From assembly GCA_018645065.1 (NCBI GenBank), contig JABGPF010000015.1, positions 1 to 38,279 on the forward strand: DNA of 38,279 nt, in the 5' to 3' direction. Made by a program: the position numbers and the translations under genes. The number at the start of each line of letters is the position of its first letter. Position 1 is the stretch's first letter. The DNA comes from Phycisphaerales bacterium (GTDB lineage: Bacteria > Planctomycetota > Phycisphaerae > SM23-33). The notes under the pieces were generated by a model. That model worked only from the letters and a program-made list of their open reading frames with translations, was not told the origin of the DNA and ran no database searches. This document shows positions 13,579-30,401 of the stretch, piece by piece.

Positions 13579-16500
13579 ATGAATGACATGAAAATCAAAT
13601 TGGCGTTGTTAGTGGTGCTGTGCCTGTCGTTGTCGCAGAAGGCCCAGGCTGAATCGGCTAGCGAGATCATCAAGTCGTCCGGCGTTACCGGCGGTCTGGT
13701 GGTTCATATCGGATGCGGTGACGGTAAGCTGACCGCCGGACTCGGCGCTGCTGAGGGATATATCGTCCAGGGCCTGGACAGTTCGCCTGCCAATGTGGAC
13801 AAGGCCCGAGCGCACTTCAGCGACAAGAAACTGGGCTCCAAAGTCACCGCCCGAACGTTCGACGGTAAAACGCTGCCCTACCGCGACAATATGGTGAACC
13901 TGATCATTGCTGACGTCGGCGCGGCGCCCGAGGCGGAGATCACCCGCGCCCTGGCGCCAAACGGCGTGGCGATCGTCGGTGGGAAGAAGCGAATCAAGCC
14001 CCGCCCATCGGAGATCGACGAGTGGACGCACTACCATCACGACCCGCAGGGCACGATGGTCGGCCTGGACAAGAAGGTCGCCCCGCTGCACGGGATTCAG
14101 TGGATGGGATCGCCGAAGTGGCTCCGCAATCATGATTTCATGACGGGCATGCACGCGATGGTCACCAGCAACGGACGGGTGTTTTATGTGATAGACGAGG
14201 GGCTGAGGAATCACATTCTGCTGCCGGCAAAATGGGTTCTGATAGCACGTGACGCGTTTAACGGTGCGGTGTTATGGCGTCGTGATCTGAAGGATTGGCA
14301 TCCGCAGAACTGGCCCCTGAAAAGCGGACCGGGCCAATTCCCCAGGCGGTTGGTGGCTGTTGGCGACCGCGTATACGTAACGTTCGGACAGACCGCAGAA
14401 CTCACCGCCATCGACGCGGTGACAGGCAAGACGATTCGCACCTACGAACAAACCAAATCCACCGAAGAGATCATCCTCGACGGCGAGACTCTCTTCCTGC
14501 TGGTGAACCCCAACAGGAAGAAAGTGGACTTCACGGTCAAATCCACCGGGTACGGTGAGATCAAACGGGCCTCGTCCGGTTGGGCCTGGACGCAGAGCGG
14601 CGAGCCGGAGAGCGTAATGGCGGTCAACGCCAAGTCGGGCAAGACGCTCTGGACCCATAAGAGCAAGGTCGCCCCGCTGTCGCTTGCGCTGGGCGGCGGG
14701 AAGGTGTTTTTCGCAAACGGAACCGGAATGGTCGCCCTGGACCGCAAAACGGGCAAACCGGCCTGGACGTCGACCGCACCGAGAATCAGCAAGGTAGGCA
14801 CCGGCGGATCAGTGCGAGTTGTTTACTCCGACGGCGTGCTGCTGGCGGCGGTGGGCACAAGGCTGACTGCGATGGGAGCCAAAGACGGTAAAATACTGTG
14901 GACCAACAGACTCCTGGCTTCGAGCCACCACTGCCCCAACGATCTGTTCGTAATCAACGGGCTGATCTGGTCGGCCCGCACGGGCGTGCCCCAGAAGCTC
15001 GGAACCCAAATATGGGCCCGCGACCTGCACACCGGGGAGCTTAAGAAGGATTTCAAGGCGACCAATGCCCCAGCGTTCCCAATGCACCCGCGATGCTACC
15101 CAAGCCGGGCCACCACGCAATATCTCATGACCAACGGAATGGGCACCGAGTTCTACAAAATCGGCGATACGAAAATGACGCTCCACCACGCCGTGCGGGG
15201 AAGCTGCATATACGGCGTGATGCCGGCCAACGGACTGCTCTACAAACCCCCGGACTCATGCGCATGCTACTACCAGTCGAAGCTCGAGTACTTCTGCGCA
15301 ATGTCGCCGGAGTCAGCGTTGAAAACCAAAACGCCCGAGGCCCAGCGACTCGAAAAGGGACCCGTATATAAGGATATCATCAACCGCAAGGCCAAGCCCG
15401 CCAATCTGACCGACTGGCCGATGTACAGGCGAGAAGCCTCACGCAGCGGGTCGACCCTGTCGCCAATGACAACCGACCTGAACGAAAAATGGAGCATCAA
15501 ACTAAGCGGAAAACTCCCCCAGCCGGTAGTCTCAGACGGCCTGGCGTTCGTTTCGTCAATCGAGCAGCAGACCCTCTACGCCATCAACACCGCCACGGGC
15601 AAAATCGCCTGGAAGTTCATCGCTGGTGGGAAGATCGACTCATCCCCCACCGTTTACAACAACACGGTCCTGTTCGGCTGCGGAGATGGGCGGGTTTACT
15701 GCCTGCGCGCCGAAGACGGAGCCGTCGCATGGCGATATCTAGTCGCCCCTGCCGACGTGCAGATGGTTTCGTATCAGCAGGTAGAATCGGTCTGGCCGGT
15801 GCATGGCGCCGTGCTTGTCGTGAAGGGCAAGCTTTACGCACTGGCTGGGCGGAACATGTTCTTCGACGGCGGAATACGCCTGGTGGTGCTCAACCCGAAA
15901 ACCGGCGAGATGATTTCCGAGAACATGATGGACAACATCGACCCCGAAACGGGCAAGGAATTCCACGAGACGATAATCGCCAAGTACATGCCCATCGCAA
16001 ACCCGGACATTTTCTCCAGCGATGGGCAGCGACTCTACATGCAGGAGCAGAACTTCGGGCTAGACGGTAAGCGTATTGGCGTCGGCCCGACCCTGCCGGG
16101 GAAAAAGGCTGCGGCGACACCGCCCGGTAAGCACCTGTTCTGCCAGACCGGCCTGCTCGATGATGCGTGGTTCCATCGCTCGTACTGGATATACGGCGAC
16201 GATTGCGGTGAGGGCTGGGGTGCGTACACCTCTACGCGAAGGCGTTCTCCCTGCGGGCGGATAATGTCGTTCGATGAGAATCGCATATACGGTTTCCGCT
16301 CCGACCCGCTGGGCAATATGCTGCACCCACGCACGAGCTACAAGCTGTTCGCTGCCGAAAAGGAACCTGCTCTTGTGCCCGCTCCGGCGCCGACGCCAAA
16401 AGCGAAACAAAAAGCCAAACCCAAAGCCAAGGGCAAGGACAAAAAAGTTCGCAAACCACGAGTCAGGCGCCCCCGCGGCGGCGGGATCAAGCATCACTGG

Positions 16501-16830
16501 CAGGTCGAAACGCCAGGTCTGCTGGTAAACGCAATGGTGCTGGGCAAAGAGAAACTGTTCATCGCAGGCCCTCCCGACCTGGCAGACGAAACAAAAATGC
16601 TCGGACACCTGCCAGGCGCCAACGACGACAACAACCGCCAACTAATCGCCCAAGCCGAAGCATGGAAAGGCAAGCGAGGCGGACTGCTGCGAGTGGTCTC
16701 ATGCAAGACCGGTGAAAAACTCGCCGAATGCAAACTGAAGAACATTCCGCTGTTCGACGGAATGTCAGCGGCCGATGGTAAACTCTTCATCGTCACGCTC
16801 GACGGCAATATAGTATGCATCGGAAAATAA
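13579..16830 (+). CDS. Exported fusion of a SAM-methyltransferase-like domain with PQQ-type beta-propeller repeats
   Basis: Signal peptide MKIKLALLVVLCLSLSQKAQA; GGLVVHIGCGDGKLTAGLG...VQGLDSSPANVDKAR (class I MTase motifs I/II); repeated propeller strands (AVNAKSGKTLWTHKSK, ALDRKTGKPAWTS, AINTATGKIAWKFIAGGKIDSSPTVYNNTVLFGCGDGRVYCLRAEDGAVAWRY). Confidence 0.82.
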   Translation: MNDMKIKLALLVVLCLSLSQKAQAESASEIIKSSGVTGGLVVHIGCGDGKLTAGLGAAEGYIVQGLDSSPANVDKARAHFSDKKLGSKVTARTFDGKTLPYRDNMVNLIIADVGAAPEAEITRALAPNGVAIVGGKKRIKPRPSEIDEWTHYHHDPQGTMVGLDKKVAPLHGIQWMGSPKWLRNHDFMTGMHAMVTSNGRVFYVIDEGLRNHILLPAKWVLIARDAFNGAVLWRRDLKDWHPQNWPLKSGPGQFPRRLVAVGDRVYVTFGQTAELTAIDAVTGKTIRTYEQTKSTEEIILDGETLFLLVNPNRKKVDFTVKSTGYGEIKRASSGWAWTQSGEPESVMAVNAKSGKTLWTHKSKVAPLSLALGGGKVFFANGTGMVALDRKTGKPAWTSTAPRISKVGTGGSVRVVYSDGVLLAAVGTRLTAMGAKDGKILWTNRLLASSHHCPNDLFVINGLIWSARTGVPQKLGTQIWARDLHTGELKKDFKATNAPAFPMHPRCYPSRATTQYLMTNGMGTEFYKIGDTKMTLHHAVRGSCIYGVMPANGLLYKPPDSCACYYQSKLEYFCAMSPESALKTKTPEAQRLEKGPVYKDIINRKAKPANLTDWPMYRREASRSGSTLSPMTTDLNEKWSIKLSGKLPQPVVSDGLAFVSSIEQQTLYAINTATGKIAWKFIAGGKIDSSPTVYNNTVLFGCGDGRVYCLRAEDGAVAWRYLVAPADVQMVSYQQVESVWPVHGAVLVVKGKLYALAGRNMFFDGGIRLVVLNPKTGEMISENMMDNIDPETGKEFHETIIAKYMPIANPDIFSSDGQRLYMQEQNFGLDGKRIGVGPTLPGKKAAATPPGKHLFCQTGLLDDAWFHRSYWIYGDDCGEGWGAYTSTRRRSPCGRIMSFDENRIYGFRSDPLGNMLHPRTSYKLFAAEKEPALVPAPAPTPKAKQKAKPKAKGKDKKVRKPRVRRPRGGGIKHHWQVETPGLLVNAMVLGKEKLFIAGPPDLADETKMLGHLPGANDDNNRQLIAQAEAWKGKRGGLLRVVSCKTGEKLAECKLKNIPLFDGMSAADGKLFIVTLDGNIVCIGK

Positions 16831-21183: not shown

Positions 21184-24100
21184 CTATTTCTTACTCCAAC
21201 ATGTAAGTTTTCCGTCGCGGGTGGCCATGTAGAGCTTTCCGTTTGCGGTGATCAGTCCGTCGAGTACGGGCGGGGATTGCAGTTTGTATTCGGCGAGTTT
21301 GGTTCCGTCTGATGACGACACTGCACGCAACAGTCCGCCCGCTCGGGCTTCCAGAGCGGCGAGGGGGGCTTTTTCGTCGAGCGTGTCCGGGGCGCCTGCG
21401 ATGAATAGTTTATCAGTTGAACTAACCATCGCCTTAACGCGGATAGGGACCCAGACCGCCCATTTCGGCGGCTTTACGCGGGAATAACCCACGCCTTTGT
21501 CTTTGTTGTACGTATAGGCGTTCACCTCGCTAAGCTGCGGGGCGCCGCCGATATTCGGACCGAACTTCTTGCCCTTGTCGTTACCGCCGCGAGTGAGATT
21601 AAACTCCGGCAGCCATTTCAACGCCTTGCCCTTATCACGACCAATCAGGATCGGCTCGTTATCGTTATCGTCAGCCACCAGAAGATAGCCCTTGGTCGCA
21701 GGGAAGAACATCGGGCTGTGACGGTTACGCGTCCAGAACGTTTTGATTCCGTAAGTGGTGTCCTTGTCGACCACGAGCAATTGACCGCTCTTAGACGCCT
21801 GATTGGCCAGATAGTAACCGGGCCAGATATTACTGTTCATCCAGAACGTGCGGTTATACCACTCATCGTCCAGAAAACCGGATGTCGAGAAAATGTGGCG
21901 CCCGGCCTTGCGATCACCCAGAAGCGAAATGGTTTTCGGCAGCACAGGCTTGAGTTTCTTGTCGAACCGAAGTTGCATTATATAGATGTACTGGTCATCG
22001 CTTACCAGCACATCGTTGCGGGCGCCCTCGGACCAATATGAATGCCCGTGGCCCTTGGTGTGATCCTCGTAAGGCCCGAGTTCCTGGTGATGGTGAACTA
22101 CCTTACCCGTTCGCGGTTCGATAGCGTACAGGAATATCCCACCGTCGAGATAAGTCGACCGCCCTGCCGAAACGTACGCCAATCCGTCGAGCATCAGCAC
22201 CGAACCATGCACCGGCCAGGCCGATTCCAACTGACCGAACGATCCGATTAACCGCTCGTGGGGCGCAGCCCGGAATCGCCAGGCCAACTTACCGTCAGTA
22301 GCTCGCAGGCAGTAGACCCACCCGTCGGCTGAGCCCATCAGGACAAGCCCGTTATGGATAGTCGGCGGTGAATCGATCCGCCCGCCGGCGATGAAACTCC
22401 AGCGTTTCTCGCCTGTTTCAGCGTTCAGGGCGTAAAGCGTGTGGGTGTCGCGCGAGGCGATCCAGATCGTGTCGCCAACGGCAACCGGCTGGGTTAAGCT
22501 GCCGGGTAATTGTATCTGCCAGGCGGATTTGATCTCGGCGGGAAGTTTGACGCCGGCCGCCCCACTGCGAGCCGAATCATGACGAAACGCAGGCCAAGCC
22601 TGAGCAGTATTGCCACTAGCCTTAACGGGCTTCCCGTAGGCGGCGCCCTTCTGCAAGCGTTTTTCCGTCGGCGCCACCGGGCCCATATCTTTGGCGCCAG
22701 CCAGTGCGTTGAATCCGAGGATTTTCACGCCAGCAGAGCAGTAGCACTGATCGGTCGGAACGTACGTCATACCGTTAGCGGGCATGATCCCCAACTTGCA
22801 ACTGCCCCGCACCCAGTTGTTGCGCGAGTGCTCGTCTCCGTTGATCGCCAGATACTCCATCCCCTCCATCGCGCCTATCACGTAGCGGCTCGTAGCCTTA
22901 TTTGTGTAGCAGCGATGATGATGCTGCGGGCTCCACAGGCCAGTCACGTCCAGGGGTTTTAGTTTCTTGCCCGTAGCCAGATCGATCCGCTGACCTCGAT
23001 ATCCCACCCAAATAGTATCGTCGACTATAAAGACCTCGCCATTGACCCCTCCGCCGCGACGACGCTTGCCTGCGGTGGTTTTGCGATTTGTCCAGATCGT
23101 CTTGCCCGTAGCCAGTGAAAGAGCCTGCATATCCGGCGAGGCGTTCAGGAGCACCGTCTGGCCGGAAATTACAATCGCGCCCCGCACCGCCAGATCCGAA
23201 CTCCACAACACCTTGCCCGACCGGATGTCCAGACAGTGAATTTCATTCGCTCCGCTACGGTGAACAACGCGGTTTCCACTGGCGGCGCATGATGGGACTC
23301 CCTTGTCAACTTCCCAGAGCCTCTTGCCGGTGGCTGCGTCAAACGCCAGCAGCCCTTTCGCCATTTTCGCGACCAGCACTCCACCGCTGAGTAACAATTT
23401 CTGCGGCGCATCGCTACCCTTGCATACTGCAATGACTTTCCCGCTGGCTGCATCGATAATACTGACCGGCGCCGCGGCGCCTATCGTAAAGTAAACCCGC
23501 TTATCGTCTGCGACCAGACGATTGGCGTAGTCGCGAGGGATTTTCGTCCGGAAGCTCAGCGTTTTTATCCAGCCGGTCTCACCTTTGTATTTTGTCCGCC
23601 ACCCGCTCTGAAAAGTCTGCCAGCCCCACTTGGGGACCGGGATCTTCCACAGCAGCGTACCGTTAAATGCATCACGTCCGATCAGCGACCATTTCTCGGG
23701 CAGTCGCGAATCGGTCACGCCGATGGGGCCTTCGTCCAGAGTGTAGAAAATGCGCCCGCCTGCGGTAACCATCGACGAAATCCCCGTAGGAACTTCATGG
23801 CTTCGGAGCCATCGCGGACCTGCGGGCCATTGCATACGTCTTGGAGGGGCTACGACGCTGTCGTCAGCCACCGGATTATTCTCCGGACCCTGTTGAAAAT
23901 GACTCCAATCGTCGATATTGCTCGGCACGGGCTTGGTCAACTTGCGATCACCAATCATCGCCACACCGCCCGGCGCCAAGGCGCGAAGTATCTCGGCGTC
24001 AGCAACTTTGCAACCATCGCCAGCCACCACCAAATTCACCATATTCTCTGCATAGGGCAGCCTGGCGCCGTCGAACGAGGCGATCGAAATTTTCCCATAG

Positions 24101-24354
24101 CCGCCCGCCGCTGTGATAAACTCCCGAGCAGCCTCCACACTGGCAGGATCAGTGTCGAGCCCGTGGACCAGATAGCTGTCATTAGCCCGCAACGCCGCGG
24201 TAAGTTTCCCATCACCACACCCGACATGCACAACCACCCCGCCGCGAACTCCGGAAGCTTTCAAAATATCACCGGCCGACTCAGCCCCAACCGCAAGATT
24301 CGAAACCAATAGCGTCGAAGAAATAACAAGCCCGCACAAAAATTTCATTTTCAT
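21184..24354 (-). CDS. Second exported SAM-methyltransferase-like / PQQ-type beta-propeller fusion (paralog of 13579..16830)
   Basis: MKMKFLCGLVISSTLLVSNLAVGAESAGDILKASGVRGGVVVHVGCGDGKLTAAL...LVHGLDTDPASVEAAR; propeller strands ALNAETGEKRWSFIAGGRIDSPPTIHNGLVLMGSADGWVYCLRATDGKLAWRF collinear with the paralog. Confidence 0.82.
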   Translation of the reverse strand: MKMKFLCGLVISSTLLVSNLAVGAESAGDILKASGVRGGVVVHVGCGDGKLTAALRANDSYLVHGLDTDPASVEAAREFITAAGGYGKISIASFDGARLPYAENMVNLVVAGDGCKVADAEILRALAPGGVAMIGDRKLTKPVPSNIDDWSHFQQGPENNPVADDSVVAPPRRMQWPAGPRWLRSHEVPTGISSMVTAGGRIFYTLDEGPIGVTDSRLPEKWSLIGRDAFNGTLLWKIPVPKWGWQTFQSGWRTKYKGETGWIKTLSFRTKIPRDYANRLVADDKRVYFTIGAAAPVSIIDAASGKVIAVCKGSDAPQKLLLSGGVLVAKMAKGLLAFDAATGKRLWEVDKGVPSCAASGNRVVHRSGANEIHCLDIRSGKVLWSSDLAVRGAIVISGQTVLLNASPDMQALSLATGKTIWTNRKTTAGKRRRGGGVNGEVFIVDDTIWVGYRGQRIDLATGKKLKPLDVTGLWSPQHHHRCYTNKATSRYVIGAMEGMEYLAINGDEHSRNNWVRGSCKLGIMPANGMTYVPTDQCYCSAGVKILGFNALAGAKDMGPVAPTEKRLQKGAAYGKPVKASGNTAQAWPAFRHDSARSGAAGVKLPAEIKSAWQIQLPGSLTQPVAVGDTIWIASRDTHTLYALNAETGEKRWSFIAGGRIDSPPTIHNGLVLMGSADGWVYCLRATDGKLAWRFRAAPHERLIGSFGQLESAWPVHGSVLMLDGLAYVSAGRSTYLDGGIFLYAIEPRTGKVVHHHQELGPYEDHTKGHGHSYWSEGARNDVLVSDDQYIYIMQLRFDKKLKPVLPKTISLLGDRKAGRHIFSTSGFLDDEWYNRTFWMNSNIWPGYYLANQASKSGQLLVVDKDTTYGIKTFWTRNRHSPMFFPATKGYLLVADDNDNEPILIGRDKGKALKWLPEFNLTRGGNDKGKKFGPNIGGAPQLSEVNAYTYNKDKGVGYSRVKPPKWAVWVPIRVKAMVSSTDKLFIAGAPDTLDEKAPLAALEARAGGLLRAVSSSDGTKLAEYKLQSPPVLDGLITANGKLYMATRDGKLTCWSKK

Positions 24355-24614
24355 AATACACATCCATTAATCATCAATAGTTAGCCAATGGTTAACCCAG
24401 GCACTGTAACCGGACAATCAGTATCCCACGCAGCATCCGCACATGTCAACCATGGGTGTTGGCCAACAGGCTTATTTGCGGTCGATTCTACGCCTTGGAG
24501 AACCAGCGTCCATATTTTACTTGCTCAGTGCATTACCTCGGATATAGTCACTGTCAAAACCCCACGGTGATCAAAGCTGCTGCAAACATCGTGCAATGGA
24601 GAAAGGCGCCAGGA

Positions 24615-27493: not shown

Positions 27494-29176
27494 CTACTTA
27501 CTGGTTGAGGTTATTTTTTCGGCTTGGCGATATAGTTCGGCCAGTTGGGTTGGAGTTACGAATATCATATCGGCGTCACGATTTTCGTGTATCGTGTGAA
27601 TTTTGTCCAGATCGTTGAACGTCCAGCAATGCAAAAAACCGTTCACAAACGCCGGGCGTTTCTTGCCCACGTGCTTGCGTATCTCGGGCAGGAAGCCTTT
27701 CACACCGCCTCGCCATGTGGTCGCCGCACGAAATATCGCCATCCCGTCCAGCGTGTAAGTCAAATTATCGATCCCCTTGTAACCTGAATAGCAGCCCATG
27801 TCAGCCAGGATCGAATGCATTTTGGGCAGCCTGGCTACATACCGCTTGAGGAATGCGTCGTCGCCGCTTACGGTGCGAACGGTTCGCATGTTCATCTTGT
27901 CGAGATAAATACGCGTCCAGTTCAAGTAACCGTCCATAACCGCAGGCGGATCGGTGTACGCCGCCCCATAAACTTTCAGCTTGGTGTAGGCTATACCCGA
28001 AACGTCGGCGAAGAACTCGGTATTCGTTGCCGCATGGGCGTAATACCACTGTGCGATCGCCGGCTGGATGTCCGCTATCGCCGGGCCCATTCCAAACGCG
28101 ACAGGGATCTTCCCGTGATCCTTGTGGGTGAAATAGCGTTGGCTAAAGCCGCGCCACACGTTCATATTGTCCCCGTCCGACAGCGCCAGTGCGATGTAGA
28201 TTTTGCTCCGGTCGAGTTTTGGCGTGGGCGTTTGTTTCGGCTGGGTCCATTTGTCGATCCGCACTCCGCTGGTGACGCATGTGTTTCGCAGGTGATCGGT
28301 GCAAACCAGCGCCTTTGCGTATTTACTGGCGAATGCAACACCTTGCGGTTCGCCCGGACCAATGCCAGTCCCAGCGTACGGGAAGCCCATAATCGGCGTG
28401 TTGGGCGCCAGCTCGGACATGATTTTCGCGATGATCTTTTTCTCGGCGGCGATATCGGCGCCCGGTTCGGCGCTGTCGACTTTACCGGCCAGCCAGAACG
28501 CAACGCCGCGCCATTGCATCAGATACGAAAACGCCCCGGTGTTCATCAGCGTGGGATGATGGTATCCGCAAATGTGGCGGCTCAGTTGATTCTTGTAGGC
28601 TCCCCAGAGCCATTCCATACCGGCGGCGTAAGTTTTGAACCGGCCGCGAAGATCGATTTTCACGGGGAGTTTCAACTCTGCCGCGAGTTTCGGATCGGCG
28701 ATAATTAAGTCTTCGCATGCGGCGGTATTCGCAGCCAGCAGATCGCCGCGGTAAAGTTTCGGATCCGGTGCGATCGCGCCTTTGTACGCACTGCGATAGG
28801 TCGCAAACAGTGTTCGCCAGTCATCGACGGTGTCATAACCGTCGATATGCTTCATCTCCACGTGCCAATCGAGCCATCGTTGATCTTCCTTGCCCAGGCT
28901 CACCCAGAACCGAGGGCGGGTGCGACTTACAAGCGCCTGGAGAGACCAGAGTGCGATCCGCTCGTTTGGTTCACATTTGCGAGCATCAACAACAATAAGC
29001 CGCCGCGCGGGCGGTTTGGACTTGGGCAAATAAGTATCACCCCAAGGCCGCGGACCAGCCTCATAAACAAGCCCACTCGGCTCGCCAGACGCCGATGCCG
29101 ATTCGGCCCTGCCATCAATGACTGCCATCAAAAACAAAACTATAATCACAGGCACAGATAACCAGTGCAATTTCAT
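27494..29176 (-). CDS. GxGYxYP-domain-like exported protein (putative glycoside hydrolase family)
   Basis: MKLHWLSVPVIIVLFLMAVIDGRA signal; LIVVDARKCEPNERIALWSLQALVSRTRPRFWVSL; IYIALALSDGDNMNVWRGF; FFADVSGIAYTKLKVYG in the signature position. Confidence 0.7.
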   Translation of the reverse strand: MKLHWLSVPVIIVLFLMAVIDGRAESASASGEPSGLVYEAGPRPWGDTYLPKSKPPARRLIVVDARKCEPNERIALWSLQALVSRTRPRFWVSLGKEDQRWLDWHVEMKHIDGYDTVDDWRTLFATYRSAYKGAIAPDPKLYRGDLLAANTAACEDLIIADPKLAAELKLPVKIDLRGRFKTYAAGMEWLWGAYKNQLSRHICGYHHPTLMNTGAFSYLMQWRGVAFWLAGKVDSAEPGADIAAEKKIIAKIMSELAPNTPIMGFPYAGTGIGPGEPQGVAFASKYAKALVCTDHLRNTCVTSGVRIDKWTQPKQTPTPKLDRSKIYIALALSDGDNMNVWRGFSQRYFTHKDHGKIPVAFGMGPAIADIQPAIAQWYYAHAATNTEFFADVSGIAYTKLKVYGAAYTDPPAVMDGYLNWTRIYLDKMNMRTVRTVSGDDAFLKRYVARLPKMHSILADMGCYSGYKGIDNLTYTLDGMAIFRAATTWRGGVKGFLPEIRKHVGKKRPAFVNGFLHCWTFNDLDKIHTIHENRDADMIFVTPTQLAELYRQAEKITSTSK

Positions 29177-29188
29177 AACATACATCCA

Positions 29189-29962
29189 TTAATCGCCAAC
29201 AGTTCGCTTTTTCAACATTGCCTCCAGGAAGCTGCTGTACTCATCTCGCATCGGCAAGTCCATATCGCGAACTACCCTACGCCGTGTCGCCGCAACTTTC
29301 TCGCCGGTCACGGGATTAATCGCTTCCTTTTCGAACGTTTCCCAGTAAAGTCCAACGCCTCTTTTTTGCCAGTTCGGGATATCATTGAAGTTCACACCGC
29401 GTTGGAACAAAAACTCATTCTTGTCCGACGAGGAAAGCCCGAGCAATTGTTTCGTGGCCTCATCCGGGGCGAGGCCTTCGCGGCGAAGGGCCCAATAACA
29501 GTGAGCGTTCAGTGCGTTTCGGCAGGCGTCTTCATTTCGCCAGCGAAAATAATCCACAACCAGAGCCATACCGGGCAATTGCGAGATGCGGCTGTCGAAC
29601 ACCGCCTGAGCCCCCAGGGCAAGCGAAAATTTTGCACTGGCTTCGGCAGCAAGAATCGAATTTAGCTTCCGCAGTTTGCGCCCGAACGATTGTTCTTCAG
29701 GATGGAACAGGAGGGAAATTTCATCGCTTTCGGTGTACGCGTAGACAACCCGGAACCCGCAAGCCATAAGATATTCGGTGGTATCGACCATAAGGTCCCT
29801 GAATTTCACATCAAAGGGCGCCTCGAACTGATGAACGTCCTTGGTTAGGCGTGTAAAATTCCGCCCGTCGAGGCGGGCGACAATAAACATCCCGGGCGGG
29901 ACGCAAAAGTCATGCGCCACTTCAAACACCCGCATCTTTTTGTCCAATTCGTCAAACTTCAT
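29189..29962 (-). CDS. Thg1-like protein (tRNA(His) guanylyltransferase family, 3'-5' nucleotidyltransferase)
   Basis: MFIVARLDGRNFTRLTKDVHQFEAPFDVKFRDLMVDTTEYLMACGFRVVYAYTESDEISLLF: Thg1-family catalytic carboxylate motifs (RLDGRxF and SDE); YFRWRNEDACRNALNAHCYWALR in place of the eukaryotic HINNLYN motif. Confidence 0.9.
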   Translation of the reverse strand: MKFDELDKKMRVFEVAHDFCVPPGMFIVARLDGRNFTRLTKDVHQFEAPFDVKFRDLMVDTTEYLMACGFRVVYAYTESDEISLLFHPEEQSFGRKLRKLNSILAAEASAKFSLALGAQAVFDSRISQLPGMALVVDYFRWRNEDACRNALNAHCYWALRREGLAPDEATKQLLGLSSSDKNEFLFQRGVNFNDIPNWQKRGVGLYWETFEKEAINPVTGEKVAATRRRVVRDMDLPMRDEYSSFLEAMLKKRTVGD

Positions 29963-30401
29963 CGTCCCATTCCTTTACCACAAAACCAGCGGGAGACTGT
30001 AGACTCACATAATACAATTCATCAAATCCTTCATTCCTGGAAGGCAACACTAACCGCGAATACGCCCCACGTATCGCCAGGTCAGGAACCCGCCTATCCT
30101 CGGAACGTGAATTATTGCGACTCAAAAGATCATCCAAACGAGATTGAAAATAGTAGCCTACTACCTTGAACCCCGCCTCACGAGCGGCCGGAATATATCG
30201 CTGCCGATCGCAGACTTCCGGATTCGTATTATCTATAACAAACTTCTGTTTCATTTCAAGGCACGCCTGCAACAGGAGTTTTTCCCGATGGCGAGTGCGC
30301 AACATATCCAGATTGATCCTGACATGAGAATCGCAAAAGCGATCACGATAGAACGTCGATTTCCCTGATGCCTGCAACCCGATTAATATTACCGCTTCCA
30401 T
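29952..30401 (-). CDS. P-loop kinase, polynucleotide-kinase-like (AAA/Zeta-toxin/PNK superfamily)
   Basis: MEAVILIGLQASGKSTFYRDRF (Walker A GxxxxGKST); RINLDMLR; KFVIDNTNPEVCDRQRYIPAAREAGFKVVGYYF, the layout of Pnkp/T4 PNK-type kinase domains. Confidence 0.85.
   Translation of the reverse strand: MEAVILIGLQASGKSTFYRDRFCDSHVRINLDMLRTRHREKLLLQACLEMKQKFVIDNTNPEVCDRQRYIPAAREAGFKVVGYYFQSRLDDLLSRNNSRSEDRRVPDLAIRGAYSRLVLPSRNEGFDELYYVSLQSPAGFVVKEWDDEV

Follow-up and report, generated by a model that had tools for sequence, protein, structure and literature searches.

What bacterial Thg1-like proteins do in vivo is an open question (PMC6471195), and a pair of overlapping genes in the 38,279-nt stretch of Phycisphaerales DNA analysed here (hereafter the window) raises it in a specific form: what is the function of such a protein when it is encoded together with a small kinase? 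A sequence-only reading of this DNA had described a polynucleotide kinase (PNK)-like and a Thg1-like open reading frame (ORF) as a candidate RNA-repair cassette. Both ORFs lie on the minus strand where they had been placed, and they overlap by exactly the 11 nt that had been reported. The pair comprises the following features.

29952–30401, minus strand: gene for a PNK-like P-loop kinase, first of the pair, 149 amino acids, ATG start; ORF with a match to AAA_33 (PF13671, E = 4.8e-14) and with the PNKP kinase domain as its closest PDB entry by sequence and fold (TM 0.84)
29189–29962, minus strand: gene for a Thg1-like 3′–5′ nucleotidyltransferase (Thg1-like protein, TLP), second of the pair, 257 amino acids, ATG start; ORF with matches to PF04446 (9.5e-32, 110.1 bits; cut-off 29.2) and Thg1C PF14413 (1e-15, 58.4 bits; cut-off 26.3), and to the Methanosarcina TLP 5axk by sequence and fold
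29952–29962, minus strand: 11-nt overlap ATGAAGTTTGA, which holds the Thg1 start and the PNK stop; an overlap of this length is shared by 59 of the 82 homologous pairs
29971–29974, minus strand: Shine–Dalgarno-like AGGA within the 3′ end of the PNK gene, 8 nt before the Thg1 ATG (AAAGGAATGGGACG followed directly by ATG); seen in the sequence and backed by a synonymous codon bias in relatives

We propose that the two genes form a module for the repair of RNA 5′ ends, a reading to which we assign a probability of about 0.72. The source genome carries one copy of each. Frameshifted or spurious ORFs were set aside because both proteins are conserved, as was a chance overlap, which would not be common to so many pairs.

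Profile and structure searches with both proteins identify, well beyond chance level, a PNK-type kinase and a TLP, on the basis of sequence and of Foldseek comparisons with AlphaFold2 models that were built from homologues in relatives' loci (mean pLDDT of 94.7 for each). For the kinase, the best solved sequence relative is the kinase domain of mammalian PNKP (9e-12), and Foldseek places PNKP, two fungal kinases and CthPnkp (TM about 0.76) ahead of T4 Pnk, PSTK and PFK-2. Its NCBIfam matches, to PNK-3′Pase, PSTK and bacterial Pnkp, are partial and all fall under the cut-off, as a lone kinase domain would lead one to expect; the 149-residue protein aligns with only the kinase region of TIGR01663 (PNK-3′Pase; 7.5e-12, 44.4 bits against a cut-off of 502.8) and thus lies outside that equivalog family, which joins phosphatase to kinase. 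Conservation was assessed across 52 homologues.

30354–30380, minus strand: Walker A motif GLQASGKST, kinase residues 8–16; G8, G13 and K14 invariant
30297–30308, minus strand: DxxR motif, kinase residues 32–35; D32 invariant
30219–30239, minus strand: VIDNTNP motif, kinase residues 55–61; D57 invariant, N58, T59 and N60 conserved in at least 90%
30084–30119, minus strand: lid motif RN..R......VP, kinase residues 95–106; N96 and R99 invariant, R95 and P106 conserved in at least 90%

The two motifs that had been quoted earlier, GLQASGKST and VIDNTNP, are therefore present as given, and the P-loop GK, the general-base Asp, the DTN and the lid Arg are all kept (G13, K14, D32, D57 and R99 are invariant). 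We equate these positions with T4 Pnk residues by assumption, and D32 is presumably the general base, the counterpart by motif of T4 Pnk D35. The predicted protein thus resembles the 5′-OH kinase domains of PNKP, T4 Pnk and CthPnkp in fold, P-loop, D32, DTN and lid Arg, but differs from them in standing alone, with neither a phosphatase nor a ligase domain.

Given the breadth of the AAA_33 family, and the presence of gluconate kinase, PFK-2 and PSTK among the weaker fold matches, the kinase might instead act on a small metabolite or nucleoside, which would make the pair a metabolic neighbourhood. We regard this as very unlikely: polynucleotide kinases are the best matches in both sequence and fold, the PNK-like residues are conserved, the constant partner of the kinase is an RNA polymerase and its other partners, described below, are RNA-repair enzymes.

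The second protein is identified as a TLP on similar grounds. Its best solved sequence relative is the TLP of M. acetivorans (MaTLP, 5axk; 8.8e-37), which also heads the Foldseek matches of the model (TM 0.82–0.88), followed by human Thg1 and BtTLP. Two plasmid-record rows were left out of the alignment behind this model. The catalytic residues were compared across 19 homologues.

29867–29869, minus strand: metal-binding Asp, D32 of the Thg1-like protein; invariant, aligned with MaTLP D21 (roles: PMC6471195)
29720–29728, minus strand: catalytic motif S79-D80-E81 of the Thg1-like protein; invariant, D80 aligned with MaTLP D69 (PMC6471195)

K99 is likewise invariant. Conservation of the TLP residues is incomplete: Thr37 stands at the place of MaTLP K26. 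The eukaryotic HINNLYN motif is lacking, as the sequence-only reading had noticed, and the segment CRNALNA aligns to it in human Thg1. Compared with MaTLP (5axk) and BtTLP (4kgk and 4kgm), the protein is alike in fold, metal-binding Asp residues and absence of HINNLYN, but it is only about 30–33% identical to them and its TLP activity is a prediction. The characterized bacterial and archaeal TLPs prefer 5′-truncated tRNA in vitro (PMC6471195). Two divergent Thg1 homologues, L053 (G063) and L054 (G064), are open frames on very long branches with altered catalytic motifs (LEVRRF and QGPELS in the former, LEGYRF and FDEELS in the latter), and judged by sequence they are possibly inactive or repurposed.

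The name of the family and its eukaryotic function suggest another role, in which the Thg1-like protein adds G-1 to tRNA-His and the kinase is incidental; the C73 of this tRNA is a template that TLPs can use (PMC6471195). However, the sole tRNA-His gene found in the source genome (contig C202) encodes a G at position −1 that pairs with C73, as is usual in bacteria, so G-1 addition is not needed there. This gene, which has no encoded CCA, was located with a looser sequence pattern after a first, stricter one had found nothing. Since RNase P itself generates 5′ phosphates, a kinase would have no purpose downstream of it and would be needed only for ends made by nucleases. Together with the absence of HINNLYN, and with the 59 nearest relatives that do without Thg1, this makes G-1 maturation highly improbable, and the preference for templated 5′-end repair over G-1 addition, which had been put forward from the sequence, is upheld.

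Among the best 80 of more than 500 relatives from one scan of genome contigs, a homologous kinase gene lies upstream of Thg1 on the same strand in 66, which span many phyla; within these 66 the kinase of L056 is a C-terminal remnant only, and those of L123 and L125 are about 570 nt distant. Of the 14 kinase-less loci, L099 is truncated where its contig ends; others are truly solo. Roughly a sixth of the close Thg1 loci have no adjoining kinase, which is therefore not obligatory. Within Planctomycetota, 19 of 26 Thg1 loci, including that of the window, have the kinase upstream, and it also precedes divergent Thg1 genes of 31–35% identity (L033 and L046). The expectation that adjacency would extend to related genomes was therefore borne out in part: the 59 nearest relatives sampled have no Thg1, but the same-strand PNK–Thg1 order is usual wherever close homologues occur and is conserved across phyla. 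The distances of PNK and Thg1 proteins are correlated (Mantel r = 0.78, null maximum 0.25, n = 75), a pattern that fits inheritance of the two genes as one unit.

The overlap itself is constrained. Across 82 pairs with an aligned Thg1 start, it measures 11 nt in 59, 14 nt in 10 and 4 nt in 6. In the 59 pairs with an 11-nt overlap we examined the codon that supplies, with its second and third bases, the beginning of the AGGA some 9 nt ahead of the Thg1 start. Where this codon specifies E, K or Q, it is GAG, AAG or CAG in 47 of 52 cases, against 20.1 ± 3.2 expected from the codon use of those same genes; none of 200,000 simulations reached 47, a P value that is overstated because the loci are related and not independent. 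Residue choice alone is insufficient to account for this bias, which indicates selection for the Shine–Dalgarno core and establishes the Thg1 start as genuine and as served from within the kinase gene. For the translational coupling that had been proposed on the strength of the overlap, this selection is consistent with coupled expression, short of proof.

We then considered the genes that accompany the pair. Clustering of all ORFs of 108 loci, iterative HMMs and the naming of representatives with Pfam revealed Hen1 (PF12623), RlaP (PF10127), an RNA ligase (PF09414), an HD-AAA_33 protein, a NIF-type HAD phosphatase (PF03031) and a Pnkp with kinase, phosphatase and ligase domains (PF16542). At least one of Hen1, Pnkp, RlaP and RNA ligase lies within 8 kb, always on the Thg1 strand, in 27 of 106 distinct loci; duplicate contigs were counted once, L066 and L097 (cross-matching by the pair's own kinase) and L105 (a distant phosphatase only) were left out, and related loci in the count overstate its independence. 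The genes are contiguous in the order Hen1–PNK–Thg1–Pnkp in L082, L100 and L121, Hen1–PNK–Thg1–RlaP–Pnkp in L124, and PNK–Thg1–RNA ligase–HD-kinase in L037 and L119. Hen1 is present in 13 of the 106 regions of 16 kb, where roughly 0.25 would be expected by chance if one Hen1 per about 7 Mb is assumed, an arithmetic estimate for loci that are related and represent at least five lineages. Operons that have a Pnkp or HD-kinase gene of their own nevertheless include the kinase of the pair, and this retention may point to a Thg1-specific hand-off.

Several of these loci have further peculiarities. L119 (Planctomycetaceae HKST-UBA50) contains a nearly gap-free same-strand cassette that begins 460 bp upstream of the Thg1 start and ends 6338 bp downstream of it, in the order PNK, Thg1, RNA ligase, HD-AAA_33, HAD phosphatase and two RlaP genes, with further ORFs between. 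NIF/FCP1-like HAD phosphatases are best known from eukaryotic transcription; the PF03031 protein found near bacterial PNK–Thg1 pairs (L030, L034, L035, L068, L084, L105 and L119) is possibly a 3′-end phosphatase. On the Thiodictyon plasmid pTs417 (L027), a Thg1 that is 57% identical to that of the window is followed by RlaP with no PNK before it, a few kilobases from the BREX gene brxD.

The window locus has no repair genes other than the pair, and among the genes scanned there is no adjacent RNA ligase, in agreement with the earlier observation. Around the pair lie genes for sulfatases and further catabolic functions; its GC content is 0.507 against 0.549 for the window. A scan for sigma-70 and terminator signals gave nothing better than shuffled sequences. 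A gene for a putative GxGYxYP glycoside hydrolase (27494–29185, minus strand) starts 3 nt past the Thg1 stop, which makes its co-transcription with the pair at this locus possible; it is not found among the recurring neighbour families of homologous loci. Two large proteins elsewhere in the window (13579–16830, plus strand, and 21184–24363, minus strand) have an N-terminal methyltransferase domain fused to PQQ-type β-propeller repeats.

The association with repair genes extends to whole genomes. Thg1 is encoded in 26 of 395 Planctomycetota genomes, the source genome included. Hen1 is found in 11 of these 26 against 29 of the 369 Thg1-negative genomes (P = 7.5e-6) and the PF09414 ligase in 14 of 26 against 62 of 369 (P = 4.4e-5), P values that ignore genome size and phylogeny. 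Some RtcB match occurs in all 26 Thg1-positive genomes, a figure that has no Thg1-negative baseline and so is not evidence of association.

Contiguity with Pnkp (itself a ligase) or a PF09414 ligase in many relatives, together with this co-occurrence, could instead mean that the pair is one step of break sealing: the kinase would prepare, and Thg1 would fill in or adenylylate, the 5′ end of the 3′ fragment, and a ligase, or Thg1 via App-RNA, would then rejoin the cleaved tRNA. Ligation by Thg1 itself has been suggested (PMC2904730), and the Thg1 gene of Vibrio phage D69 (L146) has genes for a nucleotidyltransferase, RNA ligase 1 and a polynucleotide kinase on its strand, none more than about 4 kb away. 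The source genome argues against this alternative. Searches of its assembly, about 92% complete, gave no match to the PF09414 ligase, Hen1 (Hen1_L) or RlaP, the Pnkp-specific model PF16542 being outside the search, so the absence of a ligase is provisional; RtcB is represented by one C-terminal piece of 73 of 426 profile positions (C320:2518–2718, L135), a remnant that does not lie at a contig end. Moreover, 10 of the 26 Thg1-positive genomes have neither Hen1 nor the PF09414 ligase, although all have some RtcB match. A sealing step as the general function of the pair is therefore a serious contender that falls well short of even odds, and in the source genome the module probably restores ends without an ATP-dependent RNA ligase.

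The patchy presence of Thg1 is compatible with both lateral transfer and repeated loss and proves neither. In the protein tree the window Thg1 branches, weakly supported (84/86), as the sister of a planctomycetal clade, and Planctomycetota, Pseudomonadota, Chloroflexota and others are each spread over more than one clade. Many large phages have Thg1, but a phage origin of the pair is unsupported: one weak match was obtained when phages were searched for the small kinase. The Thg1 genes of Bacillus phage BSP36 and Xanthomonas phage XaC1 have no kinase annotated next to them. Such a distribution, the occurrence of some relatives on plasmids and of one near a BREX gene, and the phage homologues would all suit a device for phage defence or conflict whose role is to alter the 5′ ends of RNA and not to repair them. 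PADLOC, however, found no match, the neighbours are repair enzymes and not effectors, and the active sites of Thg1 and PNK resemble those of ordinary repair enzymes, so we consider this the least probable of the alternatives.

Taken together, the adjacency, the Shine–Dalgarno selection, the clustering with Hen1, Pnkp, RlaP and ligase genes, the co-occurrence across genomes and the encoded G-1 support the RNA-repair reading that had been drawn from the sequence. From them, and from established chemistry, we infer the activities of the two enzymes, their order, a tRNA substrate and a source of damage, as follows. Nucleases would leave 5′-OH RNA ends that the small kinase phosphorylates; the Thg1-like protein would adenylylate the resulting 5′ phosphate and rebuild the missing 5′ nucleotides in the 3′-to-5′ direction, with the opposite strand as template, typically in the acceptor stem of a tRNA and in the way that characterized TLPs act on 5′-truncated tRNA (PMC6471195). 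Joint expression of both proteins would be secured by the overlap and by the ribosome-binding site for Thg1 inside the kinase gene. In many bacteria the module would form part of systems that seal breaks (Hen1/Pnkp/RlaP, or RNA ligase with HD-kinase), and in hosts that contain a ligase the restored end could be sealed after removal of the pyrophosphate. That the damage arises in conflict had also been suggested; what speaks for this, with ribotoxins as the agents, is the association with Hen1/Pnkp-type systems in other genomes. More tentatively, and at slightly less than even odds, we suggest that PNK–Thg1 is a self-contained, translationally coupled module for rebuilding 5′ ends, ligase-free in genomes such as this one, which Hen1/Pnkp and ligase/HD-kinase operons have captured as a 5′-end editing station while keeping its own kinase.

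These findings extend two lines of earlier work. In the bacterial Pnkp–Hen1 and Pnkp1–Rnl–Hen1 repair systems (PMC4411300), Thg1 is no part of the reconstituted complex, and Hen1 and the PF09414 ligase were not found in our source genome, but the pairs of several relatives sit in Hen1 and Pnkp operons. We found no publication that joins Hen1, Pnkp and Thg1 in a literature search of incomplete coverage. The closest precedent is the work of Anantharaman, Iyer and Aravind in 2010, who identified PNK as the most persistent neighbour of bacterial Thg1, proposed RNA repair and already gave the kinase-then-Thg1 scheme with RNA ligase and MACRO neighbours (PMC2904730). Hen1 is not named in the text of that study, and we identified no MACRO gene adjoining the pair in the loci examined here. 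The neighbourhood is otherwise the same, with the same two families side by side and a kinase likewise taken to make the 5′ phosphate for Thg1. The pairing, the scheme and the ligase neighbours have thus been known since 2010; new relative to that work are the constraint on the 11-nt overlap, the Shine–Dalgarno selection and the co-occurrence statistics. The constrained 3′ end of the kinase gene, together with the Hen1, Pnkp, RlaP and ligase operons, points to 5′-OH ends made by nucleases as the natural substrate of the pair.
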